A stretch of DNA of 64,000 nucleotides from IMG/VR virus record IMGVR_UViG_3300049729_000211, positions 62,001 to 126,000 of that record; one strand, 5' to 3'. This DNA comes from a virus. The position numbers and the translations under genes were made by a program. Position 1 is the first letter of the stretch. Each line of letters starts with the position of its first letter. Below, piece by piece: positions 3,501-63,800 of this stretch. The notes beneath the pieces are model-generated. The model had not been told where the DNA came from. It searched no databases and saw only the letters and a list, made by a program, of their open reading frames with translations.

Positions 3501-4719
3501 CTTCCATGGAGTGAAGCCGACTGATGGCATCGGCATCATTTGCGACACCGGGGGTCCTCAGCATTCCAGCGCCCGCATTGCCACTGGTGTTCTCGCCGCC
3601 GTTGCCAGCCGACTTGAAATACTCATGTGAACGGAGGGCCTTCTCAGCTTCCTCCTTGGATGCGTGAGAGTCAAGAATCTTCCCATCCTTGACATTGCAC
3701 CACGGGGCTTCCTTACCCTCTGAATCCTTGTGACCAGGCTTGTGCTCGATGGTTGCGAACTTGGACTCGAACTTGACTGAAGCACCCTTGCTGTTTTCGA
3801 TGTTCATGTCAGAGGTGAATGATCCAGGCTCTCCGTAATCCGGATGGGCGCGAATTCCTTCAGGTTCCTTGATTGTGGTCTTTCCCACTTCCTCAGGAGC
3901 CTTGATCTCCTCGCCCTTGACTGTGAAGTCCTTGGTCAGTTCAGCCAAGACCTGAGTCTCACCAGGTTCCAGACCGTTATTCTCGGCCAGGATGATGGCT
4001 GCAGTCTTTCTGCTGAGCACAGCATAAGGCTTGCGAGCCGATGCCTTCTTGTTGACCTCATCACCCTTCTCCAACTCAGGGAAATTCTTGAGAGGATTTT
4101 CAGTGATGAACGGATACTGCATCTTCGGAGTCACGTCACAGACATCCACGCGAGCGGTGTCGATGTCAGTGGTGAGTGTTTCGAAAGCACTGGACAAGGC
4201 TGGATCGAAGTAGCAAGAGAAGATCAGGTGGCGAACCAGGTTGGCCAGTTCCTGATCATCCTTCGTGTACTTGAACATGACATATTCGCGAGGATTGGTC
4301 CAGGCCGGCAAGAACATGACGATGGATTCATACTTGCCCGACTGTTCGTTCTTGAAGAGCCGGTCTTTGATCTCCTGGTAGTCGGCCTTGCTGTATTCAT
4401 CGAACTCGGACTCACCAATCTTGTGCTCGAGAAGATCTGAAACCTCCTCGCCACCGAACTCACGGACAATTGCTCCGTAGAGGAGAGCCAGAGGGAAGTC
4501 TTCAAGGTTGTCTGCCACTGAAGCAGGAACAATCATGACGCGCCCAATGACAATGTGCTGACGAAGACCCTCGTAGAAGACCTGAAGAGACTGAATCGTT
4601 CCAGAACTCTTGGCCTTGTCCTCGCCCTGTTTGATAGCGGCGACGACTTTCGCGAGTAGATGATCTCCGATCATGAATGACTGCCAAGATCTTGCGGAGA
4701 CTGTTCCCATTGGTTGCAT
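511..4719 (-). CDS. Very large acidic modular protein, probable virion or head-assembly protein
   Basis: 1402 residues, function not recognised. Residues 1-220 look globular. About 515-620 is low-complexity and acidic (repeated EPKAEST and DHEAEVEDHEKE). Zinc-ribbon-like clusters lie near 437-449 (CDAC...CIC), 967-969 (CAC) and 1022-1040 (CPDC...C). The tripeptide KTA occurs six times (about 238, 451, 487, 621, 828, 1262), mostly in linkers between modules, as it does in neighbouring proteins. The size, modularity and position beside structural genes suggest an internal virion or prohead component (inference). The start codon has a GAGGAA ribosome-binding site lying in the last codons of the upstream HNH gene. 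Confidence 0.75.
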   Translation of the reverse strand: MQPMGTVSARSWQSFMIGDHLLAKVVAAIKQGEDKAKSSGTIQSLQVFYEGLRQHIVIGRVMIVPASVADNLEDFPLALLYGAIVREFGGEEVSDLLEHKIGESEFDEYSKADYQEIKDRLFKNEQSGKYESIVMFLPAWTNPREYVMFKYTKDDQELANLVRHLIFSCYFDPALSSAFETLTTDIDTARVDVCDVTPKMQYPFITENPLKNFPELEKGDEVNKKASARKPYAVLSRKTAAIILAENNGLEPGETQVLAELTKDFTVKGEEIKAPEEVGKTTIKEPEGIRAHPDYGEPGSFTSDMNIENSKGASVKFESKFATIEHKPGHKDSEGKEAPWCNVKDGKILDSHASKEEAEKALRSHEYFKSAGNGGENTSGNAGAGMLRTPGVANDADAISRLHSMEVDRIEAPAPKVSAFTAPYQKPEEDVPDDGYCDACDRPASECICGKTAATHSRGFSSKASKKAADREARLAKLRPAGVVDAKTADVNMDFDSIWNAITEDLGPAPLVELKETKKSEPKAESTEPKAESTEPAAEPKSEEPKSEPKAEPKEDDYWNADYFAEEQEEHKEESHEHEAEEEAHEEGDHEAEVEDHEKEEDDHEAEVEDHEKEKSASVKKTAGEPQVSNQPFSALLAHDKDLGLVIMGAGAPQQAWVNGIAEMLVEEGIAKAPVFSEAFIIDGNVSGKEGRTDLALIFSPESQPNVGTLAMWRISFGNASWVDDFIANYGKDYGEEKIEWPEEQTDESMSGIYEDEDEDEDNDPHNEVTHKGGSVKKALSNPPEDQDTAKRLEGDTSINDASSEEEDHTGIKIPATEKLDKFAGIVKTAMEFTELDSLVEEMKADGFDAETIHLIFQTALGAINGEDEVVGSGWNDFGLDARTGDLMDELIRTLIQEYNSYEILEAVDAAAEDRSEADMWNNEHSQEGRMASSKKAYPDPGSSTLPEGHEWEEDKGAPDGMNVYTCACGAVYGENAGEAPYFSEGYEPHTPEFDERLKSEREEGQRHHAARDEQAPPEKKCPDCNCTSVQGIQQHYDGCPALREEEEHAKAAKSKKAEEAKHPLDSKPYDLRNAIDPKPKQSKPSGASFNIKDFVKTDPSKKASAFVLVAAEEDLPVVVEGAPKGKTENPETVRKDEREDWVTNSERPITAGFSFFYPGQALQEFYPEIQGEIVDSMPNPAPNEANNPMINDFDVSDAGKYVSTAPSAVGVGIQGQPQILNDSLPLRNEQGIRGIDFMDEYHGQLDDGIPSALLASMRLKKTANKTQDKEQFSEFIKLLVGEIAAAFVSAFKVTSRPVLNKVPGKGSISLEFVESSTSPVSSVGMSAGPGISNGSRIRSLLADLNDTDLQDIINGAWAQSAVWRNDPVDGYIYEVFVRCNKINKDTLTMEYEFITGTKEAE

Positions 4720-4722
4720 GTC

Positions 4723-5274
4723 TTATTCCTCGTTGTTGTGCCGGTAAATCTTCTGAATATGGGACAGAAAGTCTCTTACTCCCATAGCACTCTTCATACG
4801 ATTACACTGCCAACAACAAGGAACTGCATTGCCTTCAGTGTAACCAAGAGCACTATTGACCCTGTCTATCCCACCATAGATGAAAAACCCAGTATTCTCT
4901 GATTTCTTAAAAACCCTACTTGGAATCTCTCCACAGTAAACGCAAGAGGAAGTGATCAGAGAATCAAATTCTTCGTCAGACAAATCCCATACAATGTTTC
5001 TGTTTCTTGCATTTCTAGTGTAAACCTCTTTGATGCCGTTTCTAGCTGCTACTCCAAAAGGTTTTGCATTGGATTTTCCTGTACCAGAAAGAGATTCCCT
5101 TCTCAAGCAACCGCAACTACGCGCATTGCTACTGGTCAGATTGCCACCTTGAATGCTGCATTCTTTGCCACAGTCACAACGACATATCCAGCGTGCAGGA
5201 GTAATACGTCCGTCTCTCCGCATCACTACAAGTCGTCCATATCGTTTGTCGGTTAAATCGATGAGACGCGTCAT
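4723..5274 (-). CDS. HNH homing endonuclease with N-terminal zinc ribbon
   Basis: 183 residues. The N-terminus (DLTDKRYGRLVV, then CRCDCG and SCGCL) is the zinc-ribbon module that often precedes phage HNH nucleases. The HNH part holds CVYCG, GGIDRVNSALGYTEGN (the usual ID-R-N signature) and CCWQCNRMKS. It sits inside an operon: its ATG overlaps the stop of the upstream gene (ATGA), a good AGGAG precedes it, and its own last codons contain the ribosome-binding site of the downstream gene. This is typical of a free-standing homing gene that invaded an intergenic junction. Confidence 0.9.
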   Translation of the reverse strand: MTRLIDLTDKRYGRLVVMRRDGRITPARWICRCDCGKECSIQGGNLTSSNARSCGCLRRESLSGTGKSNAKPFGVAARNGIKEVYTRNARNRNIVWDLSDEEFDSLITSSCVYCGEIPSRVFKKSENTGFFIYGGIDRVNSALGYTEGNAVPCCWQCNRMKSAMGVRDFLSHIQKIYRHNNEE

Positions 5275-10313: not shown

Positions 10314-10922
10314 CTACTTCCTGACAGGACGAGCACGAGTGAGCTTCGAACCGAACTTCTTCGAAGGATCATCGTTGCCCATCCAGTAGTTGTCGGAGCC
10401 AGAGGCTTCCTTGACTTCATCCTCGATAGGCTCCTCTTCGACAGGTGGCGGTGGCAGCGCAGGCTCTTCTTCGATGTGCTCTTCTTCCATGCCCATGCCC
10501 GGCTCTTCCTCGGTGTGAATTTCCACACCAGAGTTTTCGGCCAGGTTCTCGATGGCGCCAGCGGCTTCATCCAGGAGTCCATACACTTCGCTCAAGGCCT
10601 CGCCGAACTGCTCCGGCTCTTCCTCAGCCAGCTTCTTCAGGCCGGCAGCGAACTTGGAGGCTGCTGCCTTCTTCTCGGTCGGACTCGCTGTCTTCGGTGG
10701 ATCGGAGAGATTGAGATTGTCTCTCATGTTGAGGAAGGAAGCACGAAGCGAGCCGAAAACATTGGCCAGTTCCGTAAGGGCTGACTTCACTTCCATGGGT
10801 TCATTCTTCGCAAGGAGAACCAACTTGTGCTGCTTGGGTGCCGCAGTGGCTGTTCTCGCCTTCTTGCGATTCGCGATTTTCTTGAGCAACTCTTGACGAG
10901 TAGTTGTTGAAGTTGCGGCCAT
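10314..10922 (-). CDS. Probable nested gene: internal start giving an acidic scaffold-like protein
   Basis: In-frame ATG at 10922 inside the larger gene, preceded by AGGAGA (10931-10936) with eight bases of spacing, better than the outer gene's own context. The product (MAATSTTTRQ..., 202 residues) has a basic N-terminus, an Ala/Glu helical middle and an acidic Pro/Glu tail ending in a basic RPVRK. Nested scaffold genes within a longer head gene are common in tailed phages. The expression is inferred only from the ribosome-binding site and the domain boundary. Confidence 0.4.
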   Translation of the reverse strand: MAATSTTTRQELLKKIANRKKARTATAAPKQHKLVLLAKNEPMEVKSALTELANVFGSLRASFLNMRDNLNLSDPPKTASPTEKKAAASKFAAGLKKLAEEEPEQFGEALSEVYGLLDEAAGAIENLAENSGVEIHTEEEPGMGMEEEHIEEEPALPPPPVEEEPIEDEVKEASGSDNYWMGNDDPSKKFGSKLTRARPVRK

Positions 10923-12221
10923 GATGGGTTTCTCCTGTTTTGAAGCGTTCAAACTTGTGTGCAAGATCTGATTTGGAAGATCTGGAGGAACGGTCACCCG
11001 CTCCTTGCGCTCTTGAGGTTGACCAGGTGTGGGAGGAGCTCCTTCACTTCCTGGAGGTGGTGTATTCTGAGGTGCCCCATTGGGATTCACCACAGGAATC
11101 TCTTCTTCCTGACCGGGAGCAGCTGGTGCTGTGCTCGAACCTGGAGTGGTGTGGTAGTAATCAGCCGTCTTCAGGGAGCTAAGCAACAGAGAGGATTTCT
11201 TGGAAGGAGTCTCAACTCCTCCAATGCGATCACGAATCAGATTCAGAATGCTGTGTGATGGATCGTACTCCGAGAACTCCATCATCAGCTTGCCGAACTC
11301 CTTGTAGAGTTGCTTGAGACGATCGCCGCCCAAGCCGGTGTCACTCTTGAACTTGTCGAGGAACTCGGACTTCTTGCCATGTTCAGACTCGACAATGTAG
11401 TCGAAGATCATCGCCATCACCTTGGCGATCTTTTCAGACTTCTTGGTCTCCTTGACAAATTCATAGAACTCGTCGCGGATGGTCTTGAGTTCGTCCTCTT
11501 CCTCGATGTCCTTCACGCTCCTGTTGGCCTGAGCATGCTCTTCAGTGTCGAGGATGTTGAACTCGGTACCATCGTCTTCGGATTCTTGAATCAGTGAGAC
11601 CTGATGCTGTGAAGGCTCCTCTGAATCTTTGCCTTTCTTCCAATCCACATGCCTGTCGATGAAGTCTTTGGCATCACTGAGACGATAGCCAAAAATGTAT
11701 CTCAGATAGCCAGTTATCTGCTTTTCAAGAGGCTTGGTTCTGTCCTCTTCTGGGACCCTGTTCGGATCGAACTTGGAAAGAGTCTTGCGATCATACAACT
11801 CTCTGACGAGAACGTGAGAGATCGCTTCATCCACCAAGTCCTCATCAAGTCCACCGGCTGCTCCCTCTCCATAGAGACGAGAGATGTAGTTCTTTTGGAA
11901 CCACTTGTCCCAGTTCTGGGCTTCGTCAATAGGATAACCGGATTCCTTGATTGCCTCCTTGACGATCTTGTCGATCTCCAACCCATAGACTGCGATCATT
12001 CGCAATGTTGCCACGAAACGCATCATCTTGGGTGAAGTGATCAATCCCTTCTTGGCCAACTCGGAGGAGCTCAAGGTCAGCTTTTGTGTTCCAGCTATGT
12101 TTGTAAGCTGGTATTTCTCTCCAGATGGGGAGGCAATTTTCGCCTTCACCCGGAAGGAACGTCCTTCCCTGGTTGTGATTATCTGACCTGGATCAATCGA
12201 AATGTGAGCATTCAGTATCAT
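10314..12221 (-). CDS. Large modular protein: sigma-like N-terminal half, acidic scaffold-like C-terminal half
   Basis: 635 residues. Residues about 126-192 (DLVDEAISHVL, FDPN, GYLRYIFGYRLSDAKDFI) resemble sigma region 2, and 243-315 (ending TGLGGDRLKQLYKEFGKLM) resemble region 4. A Pro/Gly linker follows (355-410). From Met434 the protein is a coiled-coil, Ala/Glu-rich segment with an acidic tail. Met434 (codon at 10922) has its own AGGAGA eight bases upstream, so a separate 202-residue product is likely. KTA occurs near 351 and 510. No family is firmly recognised. Confidence 0.65.
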   Translation of the reverse strand: MILNAHISIDPGQIITTREGRSFRVKAKIASPSGEKYQLTNIAGTQKLTLSSSELAKKGLITSPKMMRFVATLRMIAVYGLEIDKIVKEAIKESGYPIDEAQNWDKWFQKNYISRLYGEGAAGGLDEDLVDEAISHVLVRELYDRKTLSKFDPNRVPEEDRTKPLEKQITGYLRYIFGYRLSDAKDFIDRHVDWKKGKDSEEPSQHQVSLIQESEDDGTEFNILDTEEHAQANRSVKDIEEEDELKTIRDEFYEFVKETKKSEKIAKVMAMIFDYIVESEHGKKSEFLDKFKSDTGLGGDRLKQLYKEFGKLMMEFSEYDPSHSILNLIRDRIGGVETPSKKSSLLLSSLKTADYYHTTPGSSTAPAAPGQEEEIPVVNPNGAPQNTPPPGSEGAPPTPGQPQERKERVTVPPDLPNQILHTSLNASKQEKPIMAATSTTTRQELLKKIANRKKARTATAAPKQHKLVLLAKNEPMEVKSALTELANVFGSLRASFLNMRDNLNLSDPPKTASPTEKKAAASKFAAGLKKLAEEEPEQFGEALSEVYGLLDEAAGAIENLAENSGVEIHTEEEPGMGMEEEHIEEEPALPPPPVEEEPIEDEVKEASGSDNYWMGNDDPSKKFGSKLTRARPVRK

Positions 12222-12384
12222 TCTATAGAGGAGGAGGTAGTCGTTTCTTTGATATCAAAATGATAAAGTGTAATGTCTGAACTATCAGAACCACTGTAGT
12301 GAGTGACCTATCCTTATAGTCACGAGCGCAACATCAGACTACGGGATTCTCAGATTGAGAGTCACCTTTCAGGAGAAATTCCAA

Positions 12385-12591
12385 ATGGCTAAAATCGCAA
12401 AGCAGGATCGGGAAACCATGAACGCTCTTTTCACCAAGGAGCTTTCTCGGATGACAGGCACCAAGATCGCCGGGGAGAAAGACCTCCAGGCCTTCAAGGA
12501 CCATGAGGAGTACATGGCAACTCTGTCGTCTGTGCTGGCTGATGACAAGACCGAAGGCGGCCAGGACCCTAACGCGAATTTCTTTGAGTGA
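12385..12591 (+). CDS. Small hypothetical protein
   Basis: 68 residues, start chosen at 12385 because AGGAGA lies at 12371-12376. Charged and helical (MAKIAKQDRETMNALFTKEL...), acidic C-terminus. Isolated on the plus strand between a minus-strand block and the fibre gene. The 163 bases upstream contain no other gene; TTATAGT near 12314-12320 could be a -10-like box. No function recognised. Confidence 0.6.
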   Translation: MAKIAKQDRETMNALFTKELSRMTGTKIAGEKDLQAFKDHEEYMATLSSVLADDKTEGGQDPNANFFE

Positions 12592-12683
12592 TCGAAAAAC
12601 GTACTTTCGACCTCCACCAGTATCAGATCGGACTGGTGGAGGTTTCTGGTATGTTTGTCTATGTGATAGTCAATGCGGATTGA
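12592..12683 (+). pseudogene. Remnant of a GIY-YIG homing endonuclease: leader hairpin plus ten codons
   Basis: Aligns with the leader and first codons of the endonuclease at 30847-31551. Both have AAAACGTACTTTC, then CTCCACCAGTATCAG, then a GTGGAGG arm and an ATG. Here the frame reads MFVYVIVNAD and stops at 12683; the intact gene begins MFVYVIVNVV. The hairpin (arms 12611-12621 and 12632-12642, 11 base pairs) buries the GGAGG site and may also terminate transcription after the plus-strand gene. Homology ends shortly before the 3' end of the chimeric fibre gene, which points to replacement or recombination at this spot. Confidence 0.7.
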
Positions 12684-12750
12684 ACTATCGGACTCATCGC
12701 TTCACCTGCTCTGCTGCGCGGGAGACTTCCTTCCCCGTATTCAACTACGA

Positions 12751-15700
12751 TCAAAGCACCGTAACATTGTATGCCAGACTCGCTGGCGTGCCTGTTCCAC
12801 AAACATACACAGTCACTACCCCTGTTGCAGTGACGGAGGCCCGCACGTTGAATGCACCGCCTACATCCACTCCCGTCGTGCTGCTCACTGCTACTGGATG
12901 CCCTACAACTGCTCCTGTCACCGTCGCCGTGCCTGAATCGCAGGTTGCCGTTAGCGCCGTTCCTGTGATTGTCCCGGTCGTGCCAGTCAAGACGAGTTCA
13001 ACGTAAGCCGCCCCTGTGTTATTGGCAGATTTATTACCGAGAGCCGCCGAGGGTAAGAGTATGCCATTGGCGTTGTAATAAGCCCCCGGAGTCTTTACTC
13101 CATTGCCATTTGCAAAGGCTCGGAAAAGCTCGGACGGGGAAGTCGTATTGGTCGTCGAAACAATGAAATCGTCGGTGGTTGCGTCCTTTCCGTAGAACAT
13201 ATCAACAAGGTAATAGCCCGCCGCTGATGTACCGCAGAAAATCCCCACTCCTCCATAGCAGCGCGTCGCCTCTGTCGTGGCTGATCCGGTTCCTAGCGAA
13301 GTCTGCGTGCTGAAAAGGCTGAAAAGACTATTTCCCGCATTTGCGGTGCTTGTGGATACGGTTAGCTGGTCGATGTAGCCGTTGCCGTTCGATGGATCAA
13401 TACTGAATAACGTTACCGCTGGAAGAATAGGAGTAGTTTCTGTAGAATAAATCAGCTTATCAGTTGCAGCATCTTTACCAAAAAAGGTGCTTCGAGAATA
13501 GTTCCCATTTAGGTTAATTCCGGCATAGCTTCCAGGGGCAGAATATATCGCCAGACCAGCTATATTCGAAGTCCTGGGTGCTAGAACGGCGGTCGCTACT
13601 GCTGCCGTTCCTGTTCCACCTGTAAAGGCCACGCTCGGCGCGGACGAGCCGTATGTCCCCCCATTCGTTACGGTTGCGTTGATTACTTGCAAAGAGCTTC
13701 CCACTGTGGCGCAGATTGGCGTTGCGGCTGCTGAACCTGAACCGAAGGTAATGCCGGTGGGACAAACCGTGTATGAGCCACCACTACTTATATTCAAGTT
13801 GACCACTTGCTCTGTGTTATCGAGTGAAGTCTGCGCCGGGAAGAGAGACAACAGACCTGCGCCCGTAGTACCAGCAGCGTTGGTAGTCGCGGATTGCAGC
13901 CCCCATGTGGCGGAGTTTGGATTGTAGTATAGGTGACAGTCCTGAGAAATCCCGTTTGATTGCTGTGTGGGATAGGTCGAGAACGGAACTTCGAGGGTTG
14001 AAATATAGGTCGAGCAGTTGAGCGAATTTAGGTTTTGCGCTCCGTTAACTTTCACCTCCGACCACCAGTTATTTTTTGCTCCGTTCATAGCATTTGAAAG
14101 CCCCGTATAGCTGATCGTCGCGCCCTCGTCCGTACCTACCAAATCGTGCAGAGAGTATGGGGCGATAGATACTTCAATGTTTCCTGAGCCGACAAACTGC
14201 TCGGTCACGTAGGAGTTATAGAGGTATGTCGCGCTTCCCACCTGAATCAGCACCGGATTAGCGACTTGCCCCCCAAGATTGTTTGCGCCTTCCCACAATG
14301 CAATGCGCGGAAACGTTAGAGTATTGGCCGGATTCTGCGTCCAGGTGTTGAAGTCTGTCGAGACAAAACGCGCAATATCGGTGGGGAGATCACCCACACC
14401 CGCCCCAGGATAAGCCACGTGCGCCCATGCCCAATAGAAGCCAGTCACGGCGTCCTTCCACAAATACGACCCGCTAACCATGTACGTTCCGTCTGCCCCC
14501 ATCACAGGGTTGCCAGAGTACTTTACCCAGTTGATACCGTCGGTAGATGTAGCGGTTCCGGTTAGAAAATCTCCCTGTTGACCCTGAAAATATCCGTTTG
14601 TGTGAACTCCGTTTGCCTGATAAAGCATCCTCCATGTAGACCCATCTACGAGAATTGATCCGGTTGCAATAACATAGTCATCCCATGCTCCACTCTGCAA
14701 TGTTCCGCCGCTTAATACGGATGTTACGGTTCCCGGTGTGCCTCCGGCGGTCGCGGTGAAGGTTGGCAGGGTTGCGTAACCGGAACCAGTGGCGGATACG
14801 GTTGCGATGACGATGGCCCCACCGGATATTGTGACAGTAATCTGAGCGCCAGTACCCCCTCCTCCAGCGCCGTTGATCGTATATGTTCCGTCCGTCTGCC
14901 CCGAACCCGGTGTAAGGATTGTCGCGCCGGTTTGCCCGAGCACTACTCCAGAAAGATTCGCAGTGGTAAGAATTCCCGCCGCAAGATTGGCGGCACTGCT
15001 GGCGGTGTAAACCTCAATCCTGTTTTGCAGGGGCATCGGCACTGCGTAAACGTAGTAAGTTGAACCCTGATGTACAAGCTGCGAACGTGCGTGATTCAAA
15101 AGTATAGGAGTGGCCGCGCTCACCCATCCATTTACACCGTTCAGCGATTCTGCATAGCAGATGTTCGACGTGCTGCTAGTGCCCGTAGTTTTGAATACAA
15201 CCGTTCCCGACGAGAGTCCTAACAGTTGCGAGTTCGCATCCTGAATGACGGACGGTTCGCCGACAACGTTACACGGATTGGAGGTGTAGCCTATTGGTCC
15301 TTTGCGATCCCACACGGTAGACATAAGAATCTTCGAGGTTGTGCCTTCGGCAATGCTGGGGGGGGTAAATCCATCATCGGATGTGGTGCCTGCTGTAACG
15401 CTCGGCGCGCTCACCGGCCCGGTAAACGCCGCGCCGGTCAGAGCCGCGCCGCCCAGGTTCGCCAGCGCCCCGGCTGCTGTGGTTGCGCCGGTGCCGCCTG
15501 CTGTTATTGGTACTGTATTCTCGCCGGATACAGCCGTGCCGTTCGCCGGATAGTAGGCAATCTGCCCCGTTGTGCCACTGTTCACCGTGCCGCTGCCACC
15601 TGGATTGCCGCATCCTGTGCCGTCTGCCTTGGCGTAGAGCCCAGTGCAAGAACCGCTTGCACCGCCGATAGTGACAGGGTCCGTAGCGCCAGCCGCTAGG

Positions 15701-16398
15701 GTACTTGCAGTAATCTGCTTTGTAGTGGTCATATTGCCTTGACTATCTACAGTGAGATTAGGAATCGCAGGCTGGGCAGCGTTAGCTGTTGACTGAGCAT
15801 TTGAAGCGGCAGAACGAGCCGTTGAATCGTCGGCACTTCCAGAAAGTGCGGTGCGTGCAGTTGAATCGTTAGCTGAACCAGACAAGGCAGTTCGTGCAGT
15901 GGAGTCATTAGCTGAACCGGAAAGAGCTGAATTGGCACTTGACTGAGCAGTAGCTGCAGCAAGTCTTGCAATGGAGTCGTTAGCCAAACCACTTGCAGCA
16001 TTTTCTTGTAAAGAAGCACGAGCATCTGTAATTCCTGTGGTGGGAACAATAGCAGTGCCATTGGTCACTACAACAGCAATTGGAATATCTGAAGCTGTAA
16101 AGGAGGTTGTTTTCACCGCTGGAATACAAGAAGAGGATGTGTTCAGATACACGTAGTTGGTTGTAGAAGCACTCATAGTTAGAGTGCTTGCTGTATAGGT
16201 TACGATTGTTCCTGTACAATTAGCAGTTCCACCACCTAAGTTGAGGACAAGTCCAGTTCCAGGTGTTGGATCATAGCTTCCTTGAACGTACTTGGCTTTT
16301 AGAGCGGAAACTGGAGCATTGGGATTTTGAGGTTGTTGAGCAACAATAGCAGTAGTCACAACCATTGCGAATGTTAGGAAAGCCAAGAGGGTTTTCAT
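12751..16398 (-). CDS. Chimeric tail fibre or spike with signal peptide and glycosidase-like propeller
   Basis: 1215 residues. A Sec-like signal peptide (MKTLLAFLTFAMVVTTAIVA, then QQ) is unusual for a phage fibre. Residues 25-125 form a domain like those in secreted Acidobacteriota proteins (TNYVYLNTSSSCIPAVKTTSF). At about 160-195 there are three ALSGSANDSTART-like repeats, then a GGTGATTAAGALANLGG collar repeat. About 355-750 looks like a five-bladed GH43/GH32-type propeller (GEPSVIQD, STDGINWVKYSGNPV, STDFNTWTQNP), with a Gly-rich insert near 497-560. The 3' two-thirds looks more GC-rich and its codon choice differs from neighbours. Likely role: receptor binding or glycan depolymerisation. 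Confidence 0.8.
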   Translation of the reverse strand: MKTLLAFLTFAMVVTTAIVAQQPQNPNAPVSALKAKYVQGSYDPTPGTGLVLNLGGGTANCTGTIVTYTASTLTMSASTTNYVYLNTSSSCIPAVKTTSFTASDIPIAVVVTNGTAIVPTTGITDARASLQENAASGLANDSIARLAAATAQSSANSALSGSANDSTARTALSGSANDSTARTALSGSADDSTARSAASNAQSTANAAQPAIPNLTVDSQGNMTTTKQITASTLAAGATDPVTIGGASGSCTGLYAKADGTGCGNPGGSGTVNSGTTGQIAYYPANGTAVSGENTVPITAGGTGATTAAGALANLGGAALTGAAFTGPVSAPSVTAGTTSDDGFTPPSIAEGTTSKILMSTVWDRKGPIGYTSNPCNVVGEPSVIQDANSQLLGLSSGTVVFKTTGTSSTSNICYAESLNGVNGWVSAATPILLNHARSQLVHQGSTYYVYAVPMPLQNRIEVYTASSAANLAAGILTTANLSGVVLGQTGATILTPGSGQTDGTYTINGAGGGGTGAQITVTISGGAIVIATVSATGSGYATLPTFTATAGGTPGTVTSVLSGGTLQSGAWDDYVIATGSILVDGSTWRMLYQANGVHTNGYFQGQQGDFLTGTATSTDGINWVKYSGNPVMGADGTYMVSGSYLWKDAVTGFYWAWAHVAYPGAGVGDLPTDIARFVSTDFNTWTQNPANTLTFPRIALWEGANNLGGQVANPVLIQVGSATYLYNSYVTEQFVGSGNIEVSIAPYSLHDLVGTDEGATISYTGLSNAMNGAKNNWWSEVKVNGAQNLNSLNCSTYISTLEVPFSTYPTQQSNGISQDCHLYYNPNSATWGLQSATTNAAGTTGAGLLSLFPAQTSLDNTEQVVNLNISSGGSYTVCPTGITFGSGSAAATPICATVGSSLQVINATVTNGGTYGSSAPSVAFTGGTGTAAVATAVLAPRTSNIAGLAIYSAPGSYAGINLNGNYSRSTFFGKDAATDKLIYSTETTPILPAVTLFSIDPSNGNGYIDQLTVSTSTANAGNSLFSLFSTQTSLGTGSATTEATRCYGGVGIFCGTSAAGYYLVDMFYGKDATTDDFIVSTTNTTSPSELFRAFANGNGVKTPGAYYNANGILLPSAALGNKSANNTGAAYVELVLTGTTGTITGTALTATCDSGTATVTGAVVGHPVAVSSTTGVDVGGAFNVRASVTATGVVTVYVCGTGTPASLAYNVTVL

Positions 16399-16723
16399 GA
16401 GAGTTAAACTCCAAACACAAAGAAATTTTCAGTGGTGAACTGGTCTGGTGGAAGGTTAGAGAGAGAGGCAGAACTGGTTGAACATGCCATCCTATTTGAT
16501 AGTTCCCTTTCCAATTTATGGGAATGGTGAAGCTGGCATAGTAGCAACCTAGAGAAGAACAGGCTGGCATTTGATTGGCAAGGACAGAAATGAGTGTTCC
16601 TTCTGAGATCCCCACAATGCTGTAATTTATGAAAAATGGGGATACGAGATCACCAGTAGAGTCTAGGACCTGAATAGCTAGGTCAGACGTACCTAGTGTT
16701 CTTCCTGGTGTGAATGCTCGCAT
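16271..16723 (-). CDS. Tail or neck adaptor paralogue, frameshifted
   Basis: The N-terminal 80 residues match the N-terminus of the protein at 31605-32666 (TLG-x2-DL-x-I, INY, YY-x3-TIP, W-x-G-x-YQ). In this frame the protein runs 128 bases into the fibre gene with a Cys- and Ser-rich tail of low quality. In the -1 frame after the GNYQIG codons (around 16500) it would end in DQFTTENFFVFGV with TAA at 16404-16406, just before the fibre ATG. That is the expected domain end, so one base is probably missing near GGAAAGGGAAC. Confidence 0.6.
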   Translation of the reverse strand: MRAFTPGRTLGTSDLAIQVLDSTGDLVSPFFINYSIVGISEGTLISVLANQMPACSSLGCYYASFTIPINWKGNYQIGWHVQPVLPLSLTFHQTSSPLKISLCLEFNSHENPLGFPNIRNGCDYCYCCSTTSKSQCSSFRSKSQVRSRKL

Positions 16724-16780: not shown

Positions 16781-17143
16781 CTAGTGGAAGCAAGCAGCGA
16801 TTGCGGTAACGTCTATATCAGATGCAGTCAAGTACAGATAGAGAGCATCAAACGGAGTACTCTGAAACCAGATTAGCCCTCCAGAGGTCATTTGTAGCAC
16901 AACTGCTGATGGAGGGATTCCTAGGCTATGAGCAACTGTAAAATTGCCAGGAGCAGAGGAAGATACGGGTATATTGCTAACCGTAGTGCCAGCAGGTTGA
17001 ATATGCACCCACGCCAATCCAGTATCGTACCATTCTTGTCCGGTATCTGTTGCGAAGTACCTTCGTCCTGGAATTCCAAAAGTTGGAAGATTTGCGTAGG
17101 GACCAATCGCACTCACTGTTGACAAAAGAACAGGTGAACTCAT
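16781..17143 (-). CDS. Small fibre or decoration-type structural protein
   Basis: 120 residues. It contains RRYFATDTGQEWYDTGLAWVHI, a segment typical of head domains of phage fibres (a short beta hairpin with a conserved 'ATDTG' turn), then Ser/Val-rich beta-strands. It overlaps the upstream gene by four bases, so both are probably made together. No enzymatic motif. Confidence 0.65.
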   Translation of the reverse strand: MSSPVLLSTVSAIGPYANLPTFGIPGRRYFATDTGQEWYDTGLAWVHIQPAGTTVSNIPVSSSAPGNFTVAHSLGIPPSAVVLQMTSGGLIWFQSTPFDALYLYLTASDIDVTAIAACFH

Positions 17144-17634
17144 AGGTACACTCCAATCGGTTGCAACGTGCCATCAACATCAGCGTAGACGAAAGGCCCA
17201 AATTCAGTAATTTCCAGATACGACAGTACCTTTGGTACTCCACAAACTACAGCAAAACCGTAAAGTCTCGATTCAATGGAATCAAGCACCTCAATCAGTT
17301 GTGGTACACTACTAATCATTGCGTAAATGAAAGTTCCAGAATTATCAACCGCCAGGTAAGGAGAAACTGTAAATGGCGGGTTTGGCATGTGGTGAATCAC
17401 CTGTACAACATTGTCCGTAGTTAGCGAGATTCCCAAGTACAGCTGGTAAGTTGTCGTGGCAGCGTCATACAAGAAAGATTTCACCTGAATTTGAATACCA
17501 TCCACCCAAACCTCAACATCAGTCATGGGATTGAAATTCACCGTTAGGGCATCCACAGTTCGACTGAATGGTCCTCCTATCGAAGAGATCAGGTTGACCA
17601 CGTTCCCAAGGAACTCTGTGCTAACCTGTGACAT
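17140..17634 (-). CDS. Structural protein, probably tail or fibre associated
   Basis: 164 residues, beta-rich, no recognised family. It contains FNPMTDVEVWVDGIQIQVKSFLYDAATTTYQLYLG, similar in style to virion surface proteins with a 'DG-x-Q' turn. It overlaps the SWIM/intein gene upstream by 14 bases. A virion role is inferred from position. Confidence 0.6.
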   Translation of the reverse strand: MSQVSTEFLGNVVNLISSIGGPFSRTVDALTVNFNPMTDVEVWVDGIQIQVKSFLYDAATTTYQLYLGISLTTDNVVQVIHHMPNPPFTVSPYLAVDNSGTFIYAMISSVPQLIEVLDSIESRLYGFAVVCGVPKVLSYLEITEFGPFVYADVDGTLQPIGVYL

Positions 17635-19876
17635 CTTCGGTCTCCTCTTTCTCTTCGTCTAATGAAGACACCCTGAAATTCTGGTTCCTGTTGCGATTCT
17701 TCTTCCAGTTGTTGAACTTGTCATCCCGCATCTTCTTCAACCTCTTGCGATCGCCTTCTGCTTGTTCTTCGAGCTTGCGCTTTTCCTCCACAAGCATTTG
17801 GTCGATGAGGTCGTGATTCTGTGAATGGCTTTCCTCTTCGTCTTTAACATGCACTTCCTCTTTTCGAGGTTGTTGCAACTTTTCTTTCTGTTCCGCCGGG
17901 GTGGGCTGTGCTTCAACTGCAGCAGGAGCAGTGCGCTCAATTTCACGCTCGGTCTGTTCGTCAAGCTCAGCTTCTTCCTGCAGAAGACGATCACGCTCCT
18001 TGCGCTGCATCTCCTCAAGATCTTCTTTCTCCTTGGGAGTTCTGCGCTTCTTCTTGAGCAGCTGACGCTGGCGCATAGCCTCCTGCTCACGATCAAGACG
18101 AGTAGGAGCTTTGGTAGGAGTCTGCTTGTATTCCTCAACCACCTTCTCACGAACCAGGTTCTGAATATTGTGCTGAACAGCCGGAAGGATGCGTTCACAC
18201 ACGGCCTTAATGTGTTTACAAATCAGAGCATTCGTTCTTAAATCGAGCCTTTCTTTGGGAGCTTGAAGTTTTGGTCTGGGTTCTCCTTCTAAAGCATCAC
18301 GTTCATGAAGGTTCCACTGATTTCCCCAGTACAGGAACGCCGGGCAATTATGTACCACCACTCCGTTAGCAATGAACGATTCGTCTTCTTCTACTGTCAA
18401 ATCAAAAAATGATGGAGGACAGGATACCTGCTTCGCATAATTAAGGCAACGAAGAAATCCTTCTCTCCATTCCAAATCTCTAGATTCAGAAAACACTTTT
18501 CCCAGAGATTTTTCAACTCGTTCTTTATCTCTTTCACGTAGCCATTTGAACATTCGAAGAACTAGAGCAGGGTACTGTCTGTAGCTAATTCGCAGTCTAG
18601 TGTTAGTAAAACTTTGCCAAACTCCTTGGCTAAAGAGGAAAAAAGAGATTTGTTGAAGAAGATTTCTAGAGTAAGAAACAATATCTTGAGTGTCGTACTC
18701 GATGTTTCCATCCCCTAGAGCATGACTAGAGATCAAATTCCACATTGCTTCCACATCCCAAGCGAGTATTTCCTCTGATAGTCTCTTGGTTAGACTACCT
18801 TGCCCACACAATTCATACATCTGCTTAGCGAACTGGGAATCTTTCACTCTGACATTTATCCAACTATACTCAGAGTTGTCCTCAATCTCGATTCGAGCAT
18901 TAGGACCAAGGTAGCGACGTGCTCGTTCTGCTGTATCCTTGACTACAGTGTCTTTTTCGTTACGATTGTAGGTAAATGTTACTTCGTAGGCAGAGTACTG
19001 CTCTCCGTCAACCACCACCTGAGCTGCTTTAACTTTCTTGGTAGACCTTCTTTTATGTAAATGCAAGCAACCTTCAGCGAGGTAGTATCCTGTCAAAGCA
19101 GCAAGATCTGGATCAACTACCTTAGTTCCTGTCCACGCGAACTTAGGGAAGTACAGTGTCTCTCGGTCAACTATTTCCAAGGGAGTTTTCCAAAAAGAAG
19201 AAATCTCTGGTTTAACCAACAGTCTAGTATTTCCTAGAGTGTTATGTCCGGATAAGAAATTTCTACCAAGTCTCTTTTTAACAACAGAAGAATACTTTCC
19301 TGAAGTGGGCCATAGGGGTGCTCCACATCCACAAGCACAATTTTCTCTTCCTCTGACTACAGCAATAGGATGATCTTCAGACAAAATAAGCGGAGTCTGG
19401 TACCCTTTGGCTTTAACCTCCCAAGCCTGTTCTCCTTCTCTAGGTTTTCTTTCCGACACCGCTGTGACTTTCTTAGCTCTTCCCTTGTGAGTGATGACAT
19501 GATCACCTACAGATACTTCATCTATTCTCTTCTCTGTTCCATCAGCCATCCTAATCATGCTGTCTAGAGCTACACAGCTGCAGTTCACTTTGATATCCAG
19601 ATCATTGGCTCTCATTTCCGGAGTAACCTTAGACACGTCAAAGTGAACTTTCACATCATGACCGTTAGGATCGCTAGTTTCAAGATTACATTTGACATTA
19701 TAACGAAGGAAAAGGTCTTTGGGATCAGAAGCCTCAAGATGGGGAACGCAACCTGGTCTATTTTTCACAGAAAAACTGTTTGTTTGGGACACTAATTCCG
19801 GCAAAGATATAGCCAGCTTCACCTTCTTGGTAAGGTAATCCGACAATTTGAAAGAAGACCAGATTTCGCTCATCAT
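17621..19876 (-). CDS. SWIM zinc-finger phage protein interrupted by an intein
   Basis: 751 residues as translated. The host protein is residues 1-100 plus 511-751. Joined, they give VNCS-CPAFLYWGNQW and then a downstream CKH: the C-x-C-xn-C-x-H SWIM zinc motif, found in a family of phage virion-associated proteins. The C-terminal 160 residues are a charged, Lys/Glu/Gln-rich coiled coil. The intein (residues 101-510) starts at the second Cys of the C-x-C pair. After splicing the mature protein would be about 341 residues. The start region offers two ATGs and only a weak GAGA site. Confidence 0.85.
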   Translation of the reverse strand: MMSEIWSSFKLSDYLTKKVKLAISLPELVSQTNSFSVKNRPGCVPHLEASDPKDLFLRYNVKCNLETSDPNGHDVKVHFDVSKVTPEMRANDLDIKVNCSCVALDSMIRMADGTEKRIDEVSVGDHVITHKGRAKKVTAVSERKPREGEQAWEVKAKGYQTPLILSEDHPIAVVRGRENCACGCGAPLWPTSGKYSSVVKKRLGRNFLSGHNTLGNTRLLVKPEISSFWKTPLEIVDRETLYFPKFAWTGTKVVDPDLAALTGYYLAEGCLHLHKRRSTKKVKAAQVVVDGEQYSAYEVTFTYNRNEKDTVVKDTAERARRYLGPNARIEIEDNSEYSWINVRVKDSQFAKQMYELCGQGSLTKRLSEEILAWDVEAMWNLISSHALGDGNIEYDTQDIVSYSRNLLQQISFFLFSQGVWQSFTNTRLRISYRQYPALVLRMFKWLRERDKERVEKSLGKVFSESRDLEWREGFLRCLNYAKQVSCPPSFFDLTVEEDESFIANGVVVHNCPAFLYWGNQWNLHERDALEGEPRPKLQAPKERLDLRTNALICKHIKAVCERILPAVQHNIQNLVREKVVEEYKQTPTKAPTRLDREQEAMRQRQLLKKKRRTPKEKEDLEEMQRKERDRLLQEEAELDEQTEREIERTAPAAVEAQPTPAEQKEKLQQPRKEEVHVKDEEESHSQNHDLIDQMLVEEKRKLEEQAEGDRKRLKKMRDDKFNNWKKNRNRNQNFRVSSLDEEKEETEDVTG
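18347..19576 (-). mobile_element. Intein with LAGLIDADG homing endonuclease (410 residues)
   Basis: Splicing blocks are complete. Cys1 begins CVALDSMIRMADGTEKR (block A). LILSEDHPIAV is block B. LTGYYLAEG and SSHALGDGNIE are the two LAGLIDADG helices. FDLTVEEDESFIANG is block F and VVVHN followed by Cys is block G. Penultimate His, terminal Asn and Cys+1 are all present, so it should be splicing-competent. A CACGCG zinc-like cluster lies about 80 residues into the intein. The boundaries are exact at codon level. Confidence 0.92.
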
Positions 19877-30846: not shown

Positions 30847-31551
30847 CTATAGAGAAAGAGAAAGTTCACAAAAGGAACATCCTGGTTTTTTAATTCCTCG
30901 ATTGAGATGCCAACGTGTGTGATGAGCCTTTGGAAGACTTCGAGCAGCTATCCGACCGGCTCTTTGTAGGGTTTCTCTGGAATGAGACTTGCCTCCAAGG
31001 GAGTGAACTTCACGAGACATGCGGGTTGACATTTCTTCCGGATGTTCTTCCGCATATTTCCGGCAACCAGCTACTCGAGGAGTTTCGTCTTGGACTGCAC
31101 GGGCTGCCTTGATTTTGTCAATGGTTTCCTCCGAAGTGAGATGTCCCATCATCTTGGCAGAGAACCTTTCTTTATGACCAGGACGTTGCCACATGAGACG
31201 AGTGTTTTCAATTATCTTGAGACGAGATTCTTCAGAGTGAGGTGCAGTATGCCCTTCTCCACCTTTGCAAATATTGTATCCGATTTCAGGATCACGAGCT
31301 AAGAAAATCTTAATCAGTGCTTGTTCCCAAACACAGAGAGCCTCATTATTTGCACAATCAGTAACGAGAGGATAGATAGTGAAATTATCCCAACCATACT
31401 TTCGAACAGCATTATAGAGATGAGGCTTTCCAGCATCGCCTTTCAGAATTGAATCTTTCTGCCTAGACCAATAATGTTGAAGATTGTTCTCTTTCGTTTT
31501 ACCGACATAGATCTTGCAGTTTACCACATTGACGATCACGTAGACAAACAT
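30847..31551 (-). CDS. GIY-YIG homing endonuclease with RBS-sequestering leader
   Basis: 234 residues. VYVIVNVVNCKIYVGKT, then E in VWEQALIKI and IGYNICKGGEGHT form the catalytic domain; the C-terminus is basic and NUMOD-like. The leader (31552-31595) folds so that its GTGGAG arm pairs with an upstream CTCCAC arm. The same leader precedes the remnant at 12592-12683. Closely related in layout to the gene at 58636-59319. Confidence 0.92.
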   Translation of the reverse strand: MFVYVIVNVVNCKIYVGKTKENNLQHYWSRQKDSILKGDAGKPHLYNAVRKYGWDNFTIYPLVTDCANNEALCVWEQALIKIFLARDPEIGYNICKGGEGHTAPHSEESRLKIIENTRLMWQRPGHKERFSAKMMGHLTSEETIDKIKAARAVQDETPRVAGCRKYAEEHPEEMSTRMSREVHSLGGKSHSRETLQRAGRIAARSLPKAHHTRWHLNRGIKKPGCSFCELSLSL

Positions 31552-31558
31552 GCCATAC

Positions 31559-31582
31559 CTCCACTCACTGATACTGGTGGAG
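31559..31582 (-). promoter_or_regulatory. Hairpin sequestering the ribosome-binding site
   Basis: Minus strand: CTCCAC (31577-31582) pairs with GTGGAG (31559-31564), loop CAGTATCAGTGA. The GGAGG needed for translation of the endonuclease lies in the second arm. T4 homing endonucleases such as I-TevI are known to be kept silent in read-through transcripts by such hairpins. Confidence 0.55.
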
Positions 31583-31604
31583 ATTGGAAAGTACGTTTTC
31601 TTGT

Positions 31605-32666
31605 CTAGCCCAATAGCCAGCGTTGCTGTCTGAGACCCACACTCGCTGGTCTGTTCGCGGTGATTAGAGGTGCCCAGGTTTCGAACATAGCAGTGTAGGT
31701 CTGTCCTAGACCTTGGTACAGAGAGGATTTATTGATGTCCAAACTCACACCATTCAAGCTGTATCCGAACTCTTCTTCCGCCCAGCGAGCTGATTCTCCC
31801 AGCAAGCACTTGGCCGCCGCGCCGACCGCCGCCGCTTCAGCCCAGTCTTCAGGAATCGAGCGAATGTTGTAGTTGGTGAGAGCCATAGGGTTCCAGGTAT
31901 TGAGTTGGGCAATCGTGATCTTCAGCATGAGTGTGATTGTCATGTCGACCCAGATATACCCCACTCTCGAAGTGTATCCTGCTACGATCTTGCTCGGAGT
32001 TGGAGGACGGAAATGGTAGTTTCTATCCGGATTGGTGTCTGAAAGAAGCTCTCTGACACTCATGATCATCTGTGCTGTCTTTTGGTCCATCCCAGGCTTC
32101 CGAGCTACGATCATCGACGGTGCTTCGAAACTGTTGGAAGCGTAGTCGACCACCTGCACGAAGAAGTCTTCAGTCACCACATCAGAAACTAGGACAGGAG
32201 TTGAAGTTGGAGTGAACTGAGCATTGCTCGATTGACCGACCCAGATATCAGTTGAATTTGTGGTCAGGATTTGAGCAGGGGTCAATCCGTTGATCTGCAT
32301 GCTACCAGTGGAAGCCAGCACCATTGTCGCAGAAGCGAGTGTGACATTCTGGATGACAATCTCCCCGGGAATGAACACACCAGAGGTGATTGCTCCTGCT
32401 ACGTTGCTGACAGGATACTGAACCAGATTCCATCGCAGTTGATACTCACCTTCCCAGCTGGTCGGGATAGTGATTGGAACATAGTAAGCTCCGATGTTCG
32501 TGTTTCCAGGAGTCTGACTTAACACGACCGGCGAGAACACTCCACTGACATTACTGTAGATGTCATAATTGATGGCGGTCGGATTCATCAGCATTCCATT
32601 GGCATCATGGATGAGAATGCCCAGATCGCCTGGTCCTAGAGTTTTTCCTTGGGTCAAAGTCTGCAC
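31605..32666 (-). CDS. Neck or tail adaptor protein
   Basis: 353 residues. The N-terminal 110 residues are a beta domain also found, in truncated form, at 16404-16723. Then comes IWVGQSSNAQFTPTSTP, a phrase repeated in the baseplate-block protein at 59365-60831. The C-terminus (WAEAAAVGAAAKCLLGESARWAEEEFGYSLNGVSLDI) is helical and resembles head-tail connector helices. A GTG start at 32666 is preceded by GGTGAG within the end of the upstream endonuclease gene. Confidence 0.65.
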   Translation of the reverse strand: MQTLTQGKTLGPGDLGILIHDANGMLMNPTAINYDIYSNVSGVFSPVVLSQTPGNTNIGAYYVPITIPTSWEGEYQLRWNLVQYPVSNVAGAITSGVFIPGEIVIQNVTLASATMVLASTGSMQINGLTPAQILTTNSTDIWVGQSSNAQFTPTSTPVLVSDVVTEDFFVQVVDYASNSFEAPSMIVARKPGMDQKTAQMIMSVRELLSDTNPDRNYHFRPPTPSKIVAGYTSRVGYIWVDMTITLMLKITIAQLNTWNPMALTNYNIRSIPEDWAEAAAVGAAAKCLLGESARWAEEEFGYSLNGVSLDINKSSLYQGLGQTYTAMFETWAPLITANRPASVGLRQQRWLLG

Positions 32667-58635: not shown

Positions 58636-59319
58636 TTACATTAGGGTACTTCTCAACATTCGTTCTCGCTCCCGTCTAGAATGCTGAGCCTCAGATAGTT
58701 TAGCACGAACTTTCGTTGATCTCAAAGCAGTGCCTGCGTTTTCTAGACGCTTCGAGGACTCCTTGAAATTTGAACTATGATAGTAACAAACCGGAGAACA
58801 GAATAACCGACTATTTCTTTTGGAGAATGGTACGGAAAAAGGTCTGCTGCATATAAGGCAAATCTTAGTTAGTGGTGGATTGCCAACTCCTTTTTTGGCA
58901 TCACTTATCCTTTTACCCATCAATTTTCTAGTATCAGCGTTGGCAGGATTTGCATGCCATGATCTACGAGTAGTACTCAGTAGTTGACGAGTTGCTTCAG
59001 AATGAGGTCCAGTGAATCCCTCACCACCCTTACAAATGTTGTAGCCGTATTCAGGATCTCGAGATCTAAGGAACTCTATAAATTCCTTCTCTCTTTGATC
59101 CAGTTCTTCCCTGGTTTCAATATCTGAAAGAAGAGCGTGAATGCTCCACAAGGAGGGATCTGGGTACTTCCTCATCGAATTGTAGAGATAGGATCTTCCG
59201 TTTCTTTGATGGCGAGCATCCCAAAATTTACCCTTGAGATAGGCTTTCAAATCCTTTCCCTTGTGCTGACCTACATAGTATTTCCCAGTGACGTGATTCA
59301 CTATCAAATAGATGAACAT
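58636..59319 (-). CDS. GIY-YIG homing endonuclease with RBS-sequestering leader
   Basis: 227 residues. IYLIVNHVTGKYYVGQH, E in DQREKEFIEFL, YGYNICKGGEGFTGPHSEATR match the protein at 30847-31551 closely. The C-terminus has a zinc ribbon (CLICSRPF...CSPVC) in place of the other protein's tail. Hairpin at 59327-59342 covers the AGAGGT site. Confidence 0.92.
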   Translation of the reverse strand: MFIYLIVNHVTGKYYVGQHKGKDLKAYLKGKFWDARHQRNGRSYLYNSMRKYPDPSLWSIHALLSDIETREELDQREKEFIEFLRSRDPEYGYNICKGGEGFTGPHSEATRQLLSTTRRSWHANPANADTRKLMGKRISDAKKGVGNPPLTKICLICSRPFSVPFSKRNSRLFCSPVCYYHSSNFKESSKRLENAGTALRSTKVRAKLSEAQHSRRERERMLRSTLM

Positions 59320-60831: not shown

Positions 60832-63800
60832 TAGCTCCCCACAATGTAGTCAATCGTGATGTTTCCTGGTGACAGATACTCAGTGGAGGACGTGGTGATA
60901 TCCTTGGCCCCTTCTTCGTTCCACACCTGATAGGTCACTCTGTACGAGTTGGAGTTGGCTGAGTTCTGATAGGTCGGAATGCGGATCCATACATCACCAG
61001 CAGCCGAGATGAAGAACGACTGATCAATTCTTCCCTGGAATTCGGTGAGGCTGAACGTCCGAGTGTAGGACTCACTCTCGTAGAGGAAACCCACATAGGC
61101 ATTGGCCGTTCCTCCAGAGTTCAGCGTGCTGTTCTGAAGGATGGCATAGGCCACGTACACTTGATTTCCCATGGATACCCAAGGAGTGTTGCTGGGAATC
61201 AGGAAGCCAATGTCGTAGGCTCCGTCAGACTTAGCACACTTCGTGATAGGAATCTGAACACCAGTCACTCCAGGCTGGGACCTTACCTGCTGAACAAGCA
61301 GCGATTGGTCCAGGTCAGTCTGAGAGTTGTTGAGGACTATTCCAATAGCCGAACGCACCAGGTTGTCTACAGTATCCTGGGTTGCTGTTGGACTGATGGT
61401 CACGGTCATCGTGATATCCACCGGGCTGGCGACCATCGCCTTCACGAGCACATCTGCATCAGCGTGCTTGCTTGTCGCCAAAGTGGCCGCAAGTTGATCT
61501 ACCCAGGTTGGAATCTGAGTACTGACCGCGAAGACCTCTGATGCATAGTAGGAAATGAACAGAGGATAGGTCGTTCCTCCAGTGAGGAAAGGCATCGTCG
61601 AACTTCCGCCAGACTTAGCTGTAATCGAAGTCTGGCCAGAGGTGTGATCGACAGTCAGAATGAAGTCACGATTTTCCTGCAAGACTGTCCAGATTGGAAC
61701 TGAAGTGGTTCCGCTATTCCACACCACCTTGATGTATCTGCTGGTGAGAGGCACCGGCGGAGTCGCATTGATCAGTGAAACATCACTGGTTAGAGTGGTG
61801 AGTCCGTAGCTGTTTGGCAACCAGGTGTTGTAGATGAAACCAGACTGAGTTAAATACGAGGGAACTGTTCCTGTCAAAGTGAGGGTGTCAGTGTAGAAGT
61901 TGACCTTCTCGGTCAGGATGAACTTGTAGTATGTCACCACAACCGATGGGCTTCCATTCAGGGGAATGCCGGACTGATTCAGTATGTTCAGGCCAACCAA
62001 CTGCAAGTTGTACTGTTCATAAGGACCAGCAGAAGTGATCGTGTAGTCCACTCCAAAAACATAGGGTGGCCCAACAGGATCGTAAGCATTGACAACCGTG
62101 AATCCCTTGGGAGGAGAAATGGCCCCGGTGCTGGGATCGATCATCATCACCATGTTGCTGTCGATCAGTAAGCTGGTGATTGGAGAGACGTAGACAAGCG
62201 TAACCTGCTGAACTGCCGACTGAGTGCTGTCTACCTGCACCGCATCACCCGCCGCGTTGGATCCTCCAGAGAGTAGAAAGTCCTGTGTATGGATAAGTTC
62301 AATGTTCGAAGGATCGATGACTCCAGTTTGAGGTCCTGTCACTGAATTGATGCTCAGCAACGGCTGCGAAGGAGGATTGTAGAAAATGTCCTCATGGTAG
62401 CGACCTGTCAGAATATAGTTGGCATTGCCTGAGGCCATTACTCCTGTGATGAAAGCTCCATTAGTCTGAGTTCCAGGGACTTGAACTCCATTCACTAGAG
62501 TGTATGTCAGTTCTGCTGGGTTGACAAAGATGGAAGCCGTCAATCCAGCTGGATTGTTGTAAACTTGAGCAGTTTGAACTCCCAAATACACCATTCTGCC
62601 CAAACTTGTTGCTGAAAGACTCAGAACCATGTAGAGAGGACTTGTTAGACTATTCACACTGAACTTGATGGAACTCGAATTGCTCAGCAGATTCAATGTC
62701 AGAGATCCGGTCTCAGAGTAGTTGTACACCACATTGTTGATCTGTTCAGAGAAGGAAGTTCCACGAGTGTAGATGTCAACACAGCCAAATATGTGCTTGC
62801 CTGACCTCTTGATGATGAGTCCTGAATCGGAAATATCCGCCGGCAGCCAGTCGCGAAGCATCTCGTCATCTCCGGCAGCGACAACCATGGCTTGAACAAT
62901 TCCTGGTGTTTGAATGGCAGTTCCCCAGTACCCGTATCGGGTACCAGTGTCGACTCCGACAATCTTCTTGTTCTTGATGCGCTCTGCGAAACGAGAGTTG
63001 AGTTCCGTGTCTACTGCAGGAGAAGTTCCACTTTGATTGATGCAGGACATTCCTTGAGGTACACCAGAAACTGTCTGACGGATAGCTCCAGCACCAATTG
63101 TGCCCACACTTCCTGCTGTCTGACAGACCACCGGAATATCGACTGACCACCAACCCTTTGTGGCGTTGTAGAGACTATCAGCGTATCTCGGATCGATTGA
63201 GGCACTTCCCTGAGTGGTGAAGTTCACTGATGCCGTGGAACTATCAGCCAGGGTTGCTACAACGGCTCCCTGCTGAATGCTGATCAAGGTGGTGGGACGG
63301 ACATAGGTGAAGAAGGTCACTGTTCCAGCAGAGTATGTGGGACCTCCTCTAGTTAGACCCGCGTCTTCACCGGCCACATCGAAGGCATGGTCGATGTATG
63401 ACTGGATGTCTGTGCTGTTAAGACCGAAGGCCGCCGCCAGCTGCTGTTTCACAGAAGAATCTGAAACTGGGTCACTGTATCCATTCCCATTGGCATTGTC
63501 AATCTGAGCCAAGGCTGAAATGCTCTGGCAGCACAGAGCATACCACTGCCTGACCGACATGTTGCTGATCTCAACAGCGAACGGGTCGATGAAGAGGTCA
63601 CGATTCTCTGAACGAGGAGTGAGGTCCAAGTCAGGATAGATTCTGATGATCTGAGAGATCATCCTCTGGGCAACGTCCTCTTTCCTCTGAAGCGCAAGGA
63701 AATCAGTCGGGTTGACTGCCTTCAGGTTGACAAAGCCACAAGTGATCGGTCCGACCTGCTGAGATTCATAAATCTGGTTCGAAGTGGGATCCTGCAGGAT

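Follow-up and report, generated by a model that had tools for sequence, protein, structure and literature searches.

A relic of a free-standing GIY-YIG homing endonuclease gene, very probably broken and inverted by local rearrangement, beside the variable fibre slot of a phage genome

The DNA analysed here, hereafter the window, is a stretch of 64,000 nucleotides from a virus (IMG/VR record IMGVR_UViG_3300049729_000211, positions 62,001 to 126,000). Positions 12592-12680 of the window were confirmed, on the basis of homology, as the start of a GIY-YIG homing endonuclease gene (HEG), comprising its leader, its hairpin and ten codons. Taken as a whole, the relic is very probably the vestige of a free-standing GIY-YIG HEG, broken and inverted by a local rearrangement. 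The HEG would have been inserted between a gene for a 68-aa protein (gene68) and the gene for a 635-aa virion protein, in a large soil phage that has an Acidobacteriota phage among its relatives. A local rearrangement, presumably break repair with template switching, would have broken it after codon 10, flipped gene68 along with the HEG leader and stub, and removed the remaining HEG. The sequences show the homology, a HEG of relatives at this very site, sites that lack one, the inversion and the predicted hairpin.

Results

The relic and its match to an intact endonuclease gene

The relic and the intact genes of the same subfamily in the window are the following:

12592-12650, plus strand: orphan HEG leader, directly 3' of the gene68 stop codon, matching the leader of the intact HEG
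12610-12643, plus strand: hairpin predicted to sequester the ribosome-binding site (RBS), from the fold, Shine-Dalgarno (SD) pairing and inverted repeat I1
12651-12683, plus strand: HEG codons 1-10 (MFVYVIVNAD) and then TGA, with 92% nucleotide identity over 25 nt to 31551-31527
12684-12750, no strand assigned: stretch from the HEG stub to the fibre stop codon, for which searches gave no homolog
30847-31551, minus strand: intact GIY-YIG HEG of the same subfamily (234 aa, with NUMOD3 motif; PHROG 314 and Pfam)
31552-31604, minus strand: leader of the intact HEG, with a homologous hairpin
58636-59319, minus strand: further subfamily HEG of 227 aa, preceded by a gene stop codon and a hairpin leader

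When 12592-12690 was compared with the whole 143,574-base record, the sole non-self match was the leader of the gene at 30847-31551 (80% identity over 83 nt, query 5-87, E 1.7e-13), with 91% identity over 32 nt in the leader part and 92% over 25 nt in the coding part; the 25-nt coding pattern had no match in any dinucleotide shuffle of the window. A previous sequence-only reading of this DNA had placed a GIY-YIG leader, hairpin and ten codons here, and the match bears this out, extending also to the sequence 5' of the hairpin and to the codons. The same reading had called the leader near-identical to that of the intact gene: the homology stands, though the wording was slightly strong, as the hairpin tip differs by an indel.

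HEG homology was significant in the leader and codons 1-10 (0/100 shuffles equally good) and not significant beyond 12681 (p 0.15 and 0.63 for the two strands), so it ends abruptly, as had been claimed. Homology continuing past 12681 with small indels was considered and rejected as not significant. The relic open reading frame (ORF) has ten codons, with an in-frame TGA where HEG homology stops, and the stub ends upstream of the YIG motif. No significant match was obtained for 12684-12750, a 23-nt pattern spanning the stub end (from about 12677) was absent from the viral contigs searched, a distant DNA search of phage records with the relic region gave no match, and an Rfam search gave tRNAs only.

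The gene at 30847-31551 matched the PHROG 314 homing endonucleases (E 1.8e-25) and the Pfam families GIY-YIG (2.9e-4) and NUMOD3 (2.4e-5). Pfam GIY-YIG scored 21.5 bits on intact relatives of the stub, against a cut-off of 22.6; the GIY-YIG catalytic domain with its conserved Y, G, R, E and N is present in them, and Y4, Y15, G17, R50, E76 and N93 were invariant in the subfamily alignment. The HEGs of the subfamily are presumably active in homing. Eleven GIY-YIG matches were counted in the record (143.6 kb), a heavy load of such endonuclease genes.

The hairpin leader across the subfamily

The relic hairpin has perfect arms of 12 nt each (12610-12621 and 12632-12643), with the SD sequence GGAGG (12638-12642) within the 3' arm and an outer helix extending to the start codon. 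Its minimum free energy was -44.1 kcal/mol (z -6.6; 0/200 shuffles equally good), and the pairing probability of the SD region was 0.99.

A scan seeded with eight subfamily members gave 80 related loci, and fifty distinct subfamily gene starts were used for leader analysis. An upstream open frame ended 12-87 nt (median 46) before 49/50 of these starts, and nearly all starts carried a hairpin with the SD in or beside its 3' arm. Subfamily leaders folded more stably than those of genes of the same genome and had their SD more often paired: the median z was -2.49 and SD pairing 0.76, vs. -0.08 and 0.37 for 111 same-genome genes (p about 1e-14 and 1e-12 respectively). The values for 82 other GIY-YIG starts were -0.27 and 0.47 (p 2e-10 for the SD-pairing difference). 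GTAT was found in or at the loop of 27 leaders, 41% of which had 8/8 stem pairs (3% in shuffles); stem sequences varied between members and pairing was kept. RNAalifold, run on a MAFFT alignment of the leaders with their varying loop and stem lengths, gave no consensus structure, and stems were therefore scored singly.

By prediction, the SD is paired in a stable helix of the I-TevI/mobE type. An SD held in the 3' arm would leave the HEG poorly translated from read-through transcripts until the hairpin opens, and the folds suggest translational repression of this kind. The loop motif GTATTA/GTATTTATA could be a candidate promoter, whose transcript would then omit the 5' arm.

A profile search with the leader only gave one further relic (locus L027, described below), one leader on a different nuclease (locus L093), and weak matches that were probably due to chance. 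Endonuclease-less copies of the leader were not widespread: the loci searched held 39 distinct subfamily gene starts, and just one of these, the window relic, gave a short ORF inside a contig. The L093 leader (4700-4760) is of the HEG type and precedes an Endonuclease VII (PF02945) gene, suggesting that the leader may be common to nuclease classes.

The same site in related phages

The site formerly held by the HEG is delimited by the following features:

12281-12384, plus strand: gene68 leader, homologous to contig L014 at 12281-12301 and 12337-12384
12385-12591, plus strand: gene68, which hosted the former HEG site and is inverted with respect to relatives
10314-12221, minus strand: 635-aa virion protein, usual downstream neighbour of gene68/HEG
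12281-12680, no strand assigned: inverted block (gene68 leader, gene68, HEG leader and HEG codons 1-10), in orientation opposite to relatives

The gene68 product was 54% identical to ORF344 of Tunturiibacter phage Tunturi_5 (PP885688) and 93% to its homologs in contigs L014 and L015; the 635-aa protein is a homolog of Tunturi_5 ORF345, annotated “virion structural protein” (91% identity to L014/L015). The IMG/VR scan with gene68 gave three close contigs (L014, L015 and L016), and a profile scan ten more (L223-L232), several of them near-identical to one another. Behind gene68, L014 and L015 both carry a GIY-YIG HEG of this subfamily that is nearly full-length; it has a hairpin leader of its own, a C-terminal frameshift and an open catalytic domain. 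These copies stand at the exact position of the stub and agree with the earlier suggestions that an endonuclease gene had once been here and was lost, and that it might still be found intact in relatives, save for the frameshift. The frameshift near the C-terminus of the L014 copy (3934-4807) is possibly early decay. Contig L016 ends within 15 bases of the gene68 stop and is uninformative on the insert.

In Tunturi_5 and L223-L232, gene68 and the 635-aa gene are close together on the same strand and HEG-free. With a HEG in L014/L015, none in Tunturi_5 and L223-L232, and a stub in the window, the site is therefore occupied, empty or decayed across phages. It must have held different members of the subfamily, since the stub is closest to the HEG at 30847 and not to the L014/L015 HEG at this site.

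Inversion and loss of the endonuclease gene

In all 13 records with both flanks (L014, L015, L223-L232 and Tunturi_5), gene68, the 635-aa gene and the tail genes are collinear, and the tail-gene flank of L016 agrees with this order. The window differs: a block of about 400 bp that holds gene68 and the HEG stub runs opposite to the relatives, and the HEG is gone from codon 11 onward. Part of the gene68 leader, traceable to 12281, moved with the block, which sets the inverted block at about 12281-12680. Because gene68 and the stub are inverted with respect to all relatives with known flanks, the change was an inversion plus a deletion and no simple truncation. The inversion had been missed by the sequence-only reading. 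Loss of the HEG by local rearrangement is well supported.

Within the gene68 leader, ACTATCaGaACCACtgTAGTG matches the L014 leader (p 0.002) and 12337-12384 is 98% identical to it, with about 35 nt of extra sequence between the two L014-homologous parts. The comparison of gene68 with L014 gave dN 0.029 and dS 0.37 (dN/dS about 0.08), indicating purifying selection; part of this divergence may predate the inversion.

Several candidate marks of the junctions were examined. A direct repeat, TGAACTATCRGA, at 12278 and 12681 (11/12 match) was rejected as a mark of recombination or duplication, because the 12278 copy is gene68 leader and the comparison of the leader with the sequence after 12676 gave p 0.10. 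No convincing inverted repeats were found at the block ends. The motif ACTATC was discarded as a general intergenic motif explaining the junctions, with only a handful of non-coding copies.

A second relic, scrambled and with an inverted piece, was found in L027 (4800-5510), a locus from a 332-kb viral contig. After its subfamily leader and codons 1-15 come 117 nt copied from the upstream gene (99.1% identity to the source, which lies in the same contig) and then HEG residues 130-180, 18-39, 70-35 inverted, and 182-230. As in the window relic, there is a break within the first 15 codons and an inversion. Both the window and L027 are metagenome assemblies, and two relics, both metagenomic, make no rule.

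The adjoining fibre slot

The slot beside the relic is occupied and bordered by two features:

12751-16398, minus strand: fibre-like protein of 1215 aa, encoded convergently with gene68, in a variable slot that is ancestral
17140-17634, minus strand: tail-region gene at the other edge of the slot, whose nucleotide homology with L014/L015/L016 stops at 17368

For the 1215-aa protein, Pfam and PHROGs gave no family, and tblastn against phages and IMG/VR gave no relative; the name “fibre” comes from the sequence-only reading and is based on position and composition. In L223-L232, about 1.6 to 4.8 kb separate gene68 from the homolog of the 17140-17634 tail gene, and annotated tail fibres precede gene68 in Tunturi_5. 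No fibre DNA is present in the slot of L014, L015 and L016, yet L014 and L015 carry the HEG. The long variable interval in other lineages indicates that fibre DNA in the slot needs no HEG, and, judging from these comparisons, the slot is old and variable without any HEG. The two causal proposals made earlier, that acquisition of the fibre deleted the HEG or that HEG-induced repair brought in the fibre module, are not supported in the form given: the slot is variable and long in other lineages, and L014/L015 combine the HEG with a slot without fibre.

Just upstream of the fibre, and overlapping its ORF in a different frame, lies an ORF (16271-16723) that is a truncated paralog of 31605-32666, the gene preceding the intact HEG; the similarity is to the N-terminus of that gene (40% over 81 aa). 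The region is therefore a patchwork, which makes a joint origin of the fibre and the HEG loss possible. A causal link between HEG loss and fibre acquisition is likewise possible, and the order and cause of the events are unreadable from one genome. Another tail-region gene of the window (17621-19876) has an intein, for which the Pfam matches Intein_splicing and Hom_end_hint both score below cut-off. L016 shares the intein (99.9% identical) and L014/L015 lack it, a presence/absence polymorphism.

Alternative explanations

The inverted block might be an assembly or amplification chimera, that is, an artefact of metagenome sequencing: it is known from a single contig, inverted joins are among the known artefacts and there is a hairpin nearby. 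Both junctions, however, hold extra unique sequence and are not clean joins, gene68 is 7% diverged from L014 under purifying selection with its frame kept, the block ends were remodelled (the insertion in the gene68 leader) and the record holds gene68 as a single copy. A chimera is accordingly improbable, and assembly error behind the inversion is unlikely; that no second contig spanning the inverted junctions of the window was found carries little weight, as very near records may have been absent from the set searched. A similarly small chance is given to the hairpin having been kept as a terminator between the convergent gene68 and fibre genes, with the HEG codons incidental. Its strong stem does lie between two convergent genes, and T runs follow some subfamily hairpins (L105, L124), but no terminator-like site, as a GC-rich stem with a T run, was called at 12592-12680 on either strand, the arms have no following T run, and the coding part is conserved as well as the leader. 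Least credible of all is that the ten codons are no debris but serve a function, as a leader peptide or a regulatory decoy: the TGA is clean and in frame and a perfect hairpin was retained, but this TGA falls exactly at the end of HEG homology and the short form occurs in no relative.

A wider role of the endonuclease itself was also weighed and seems rather unlikely, though less so than the readings above. Cleavage by the HEG nearby might have led to a single break repair that removed the HEG, reversed gene68 and put the present fibre DNA in place. No more than 70 bp take in the HEG stub, the inversion edge and the fibre 3' end; free-standing HEGs of T4 cleave at a distance and co-convert flanks (PMC2988022); and the L027 HEG is a patchwork with an upstream-gene copy and an inversion. 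Against this, the fibre slot is an ancestral one that varies without HEGs, L014/L015 have the HEG and a slot without fibre DNA, and no homolog of the fibre or flank was found to time the event.

Discussion

The preferred reading is a HEG vestige broken and inverted by local rearrangement, and the relic is a genuine HEG relic of a known kind with an unusual inversion. Weighing against this reading are the metagenomic origin of both relics, the closer match of the stub to the 30847 HEG than to the HEG at this site in L014/L015, the frameshift in those copies, and the negative RNAalifold result. Free-standing HEGs are thought to cycle through invasion, decay and loss, and loss is usually visible as absence only. 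Here, empty, occupied and decayed states of one site were found in related phages, with decay coupled to an inversion beside a variable fibre slot. The shared leader offers a means to recognise further HEG relics and to test low-expression control of these parasites. A broader and rather doubtful proposal is that the HEG loci of these phages are sites of short-range template-switch repair, which may scramble or invert the HEG and its host gene and reshape the adjoining fibre slot, and that the RBS-hiding hairpin may be a portable expression cassette of GIY-YIG and, as in L093, Endonuclease VII-type nucleases.

Comparison with known systems

RBS-sequestering hairpins were described for I-TevI, I-TevII, I-TevIII, segB and mobE, and in T4 a late promoter within or beside the helix frees the RBS (PMC2988022; PMC3014915). 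As in T4 I-TevI, I-TevII, I-TevIII and segB and in Aeh1 mobE, the HEG SD is here predicted to be hidden in an upstream RNA helix, and T4 segB and Aeh1 mobE are free-standing, as are the subfamily HEGs. The T4 helices differ in having a late promoter, whereas the loop motif found here is a candidate promoter at most; and here one leader type is present in about 50 members, mostly from uncultured viral contigs, with a GUAU loop in 27/50. T4 seg genes also have a GIY-YIG domain and an intergenic position behind another gene, with no intron seen, but the subfamily described here belongs to PHROG 314 and has NUMOD3 and other C-termini. Defective HEGs of T4-like phages include T4 mobA and the defunct T4 I-TevIII (PMC3014915, PMC2988022), in which, as in the window, an inactivated HEG was left in the genome; in the window, by contrast, just the leader and ten codons are left, and the host gene is inverted.
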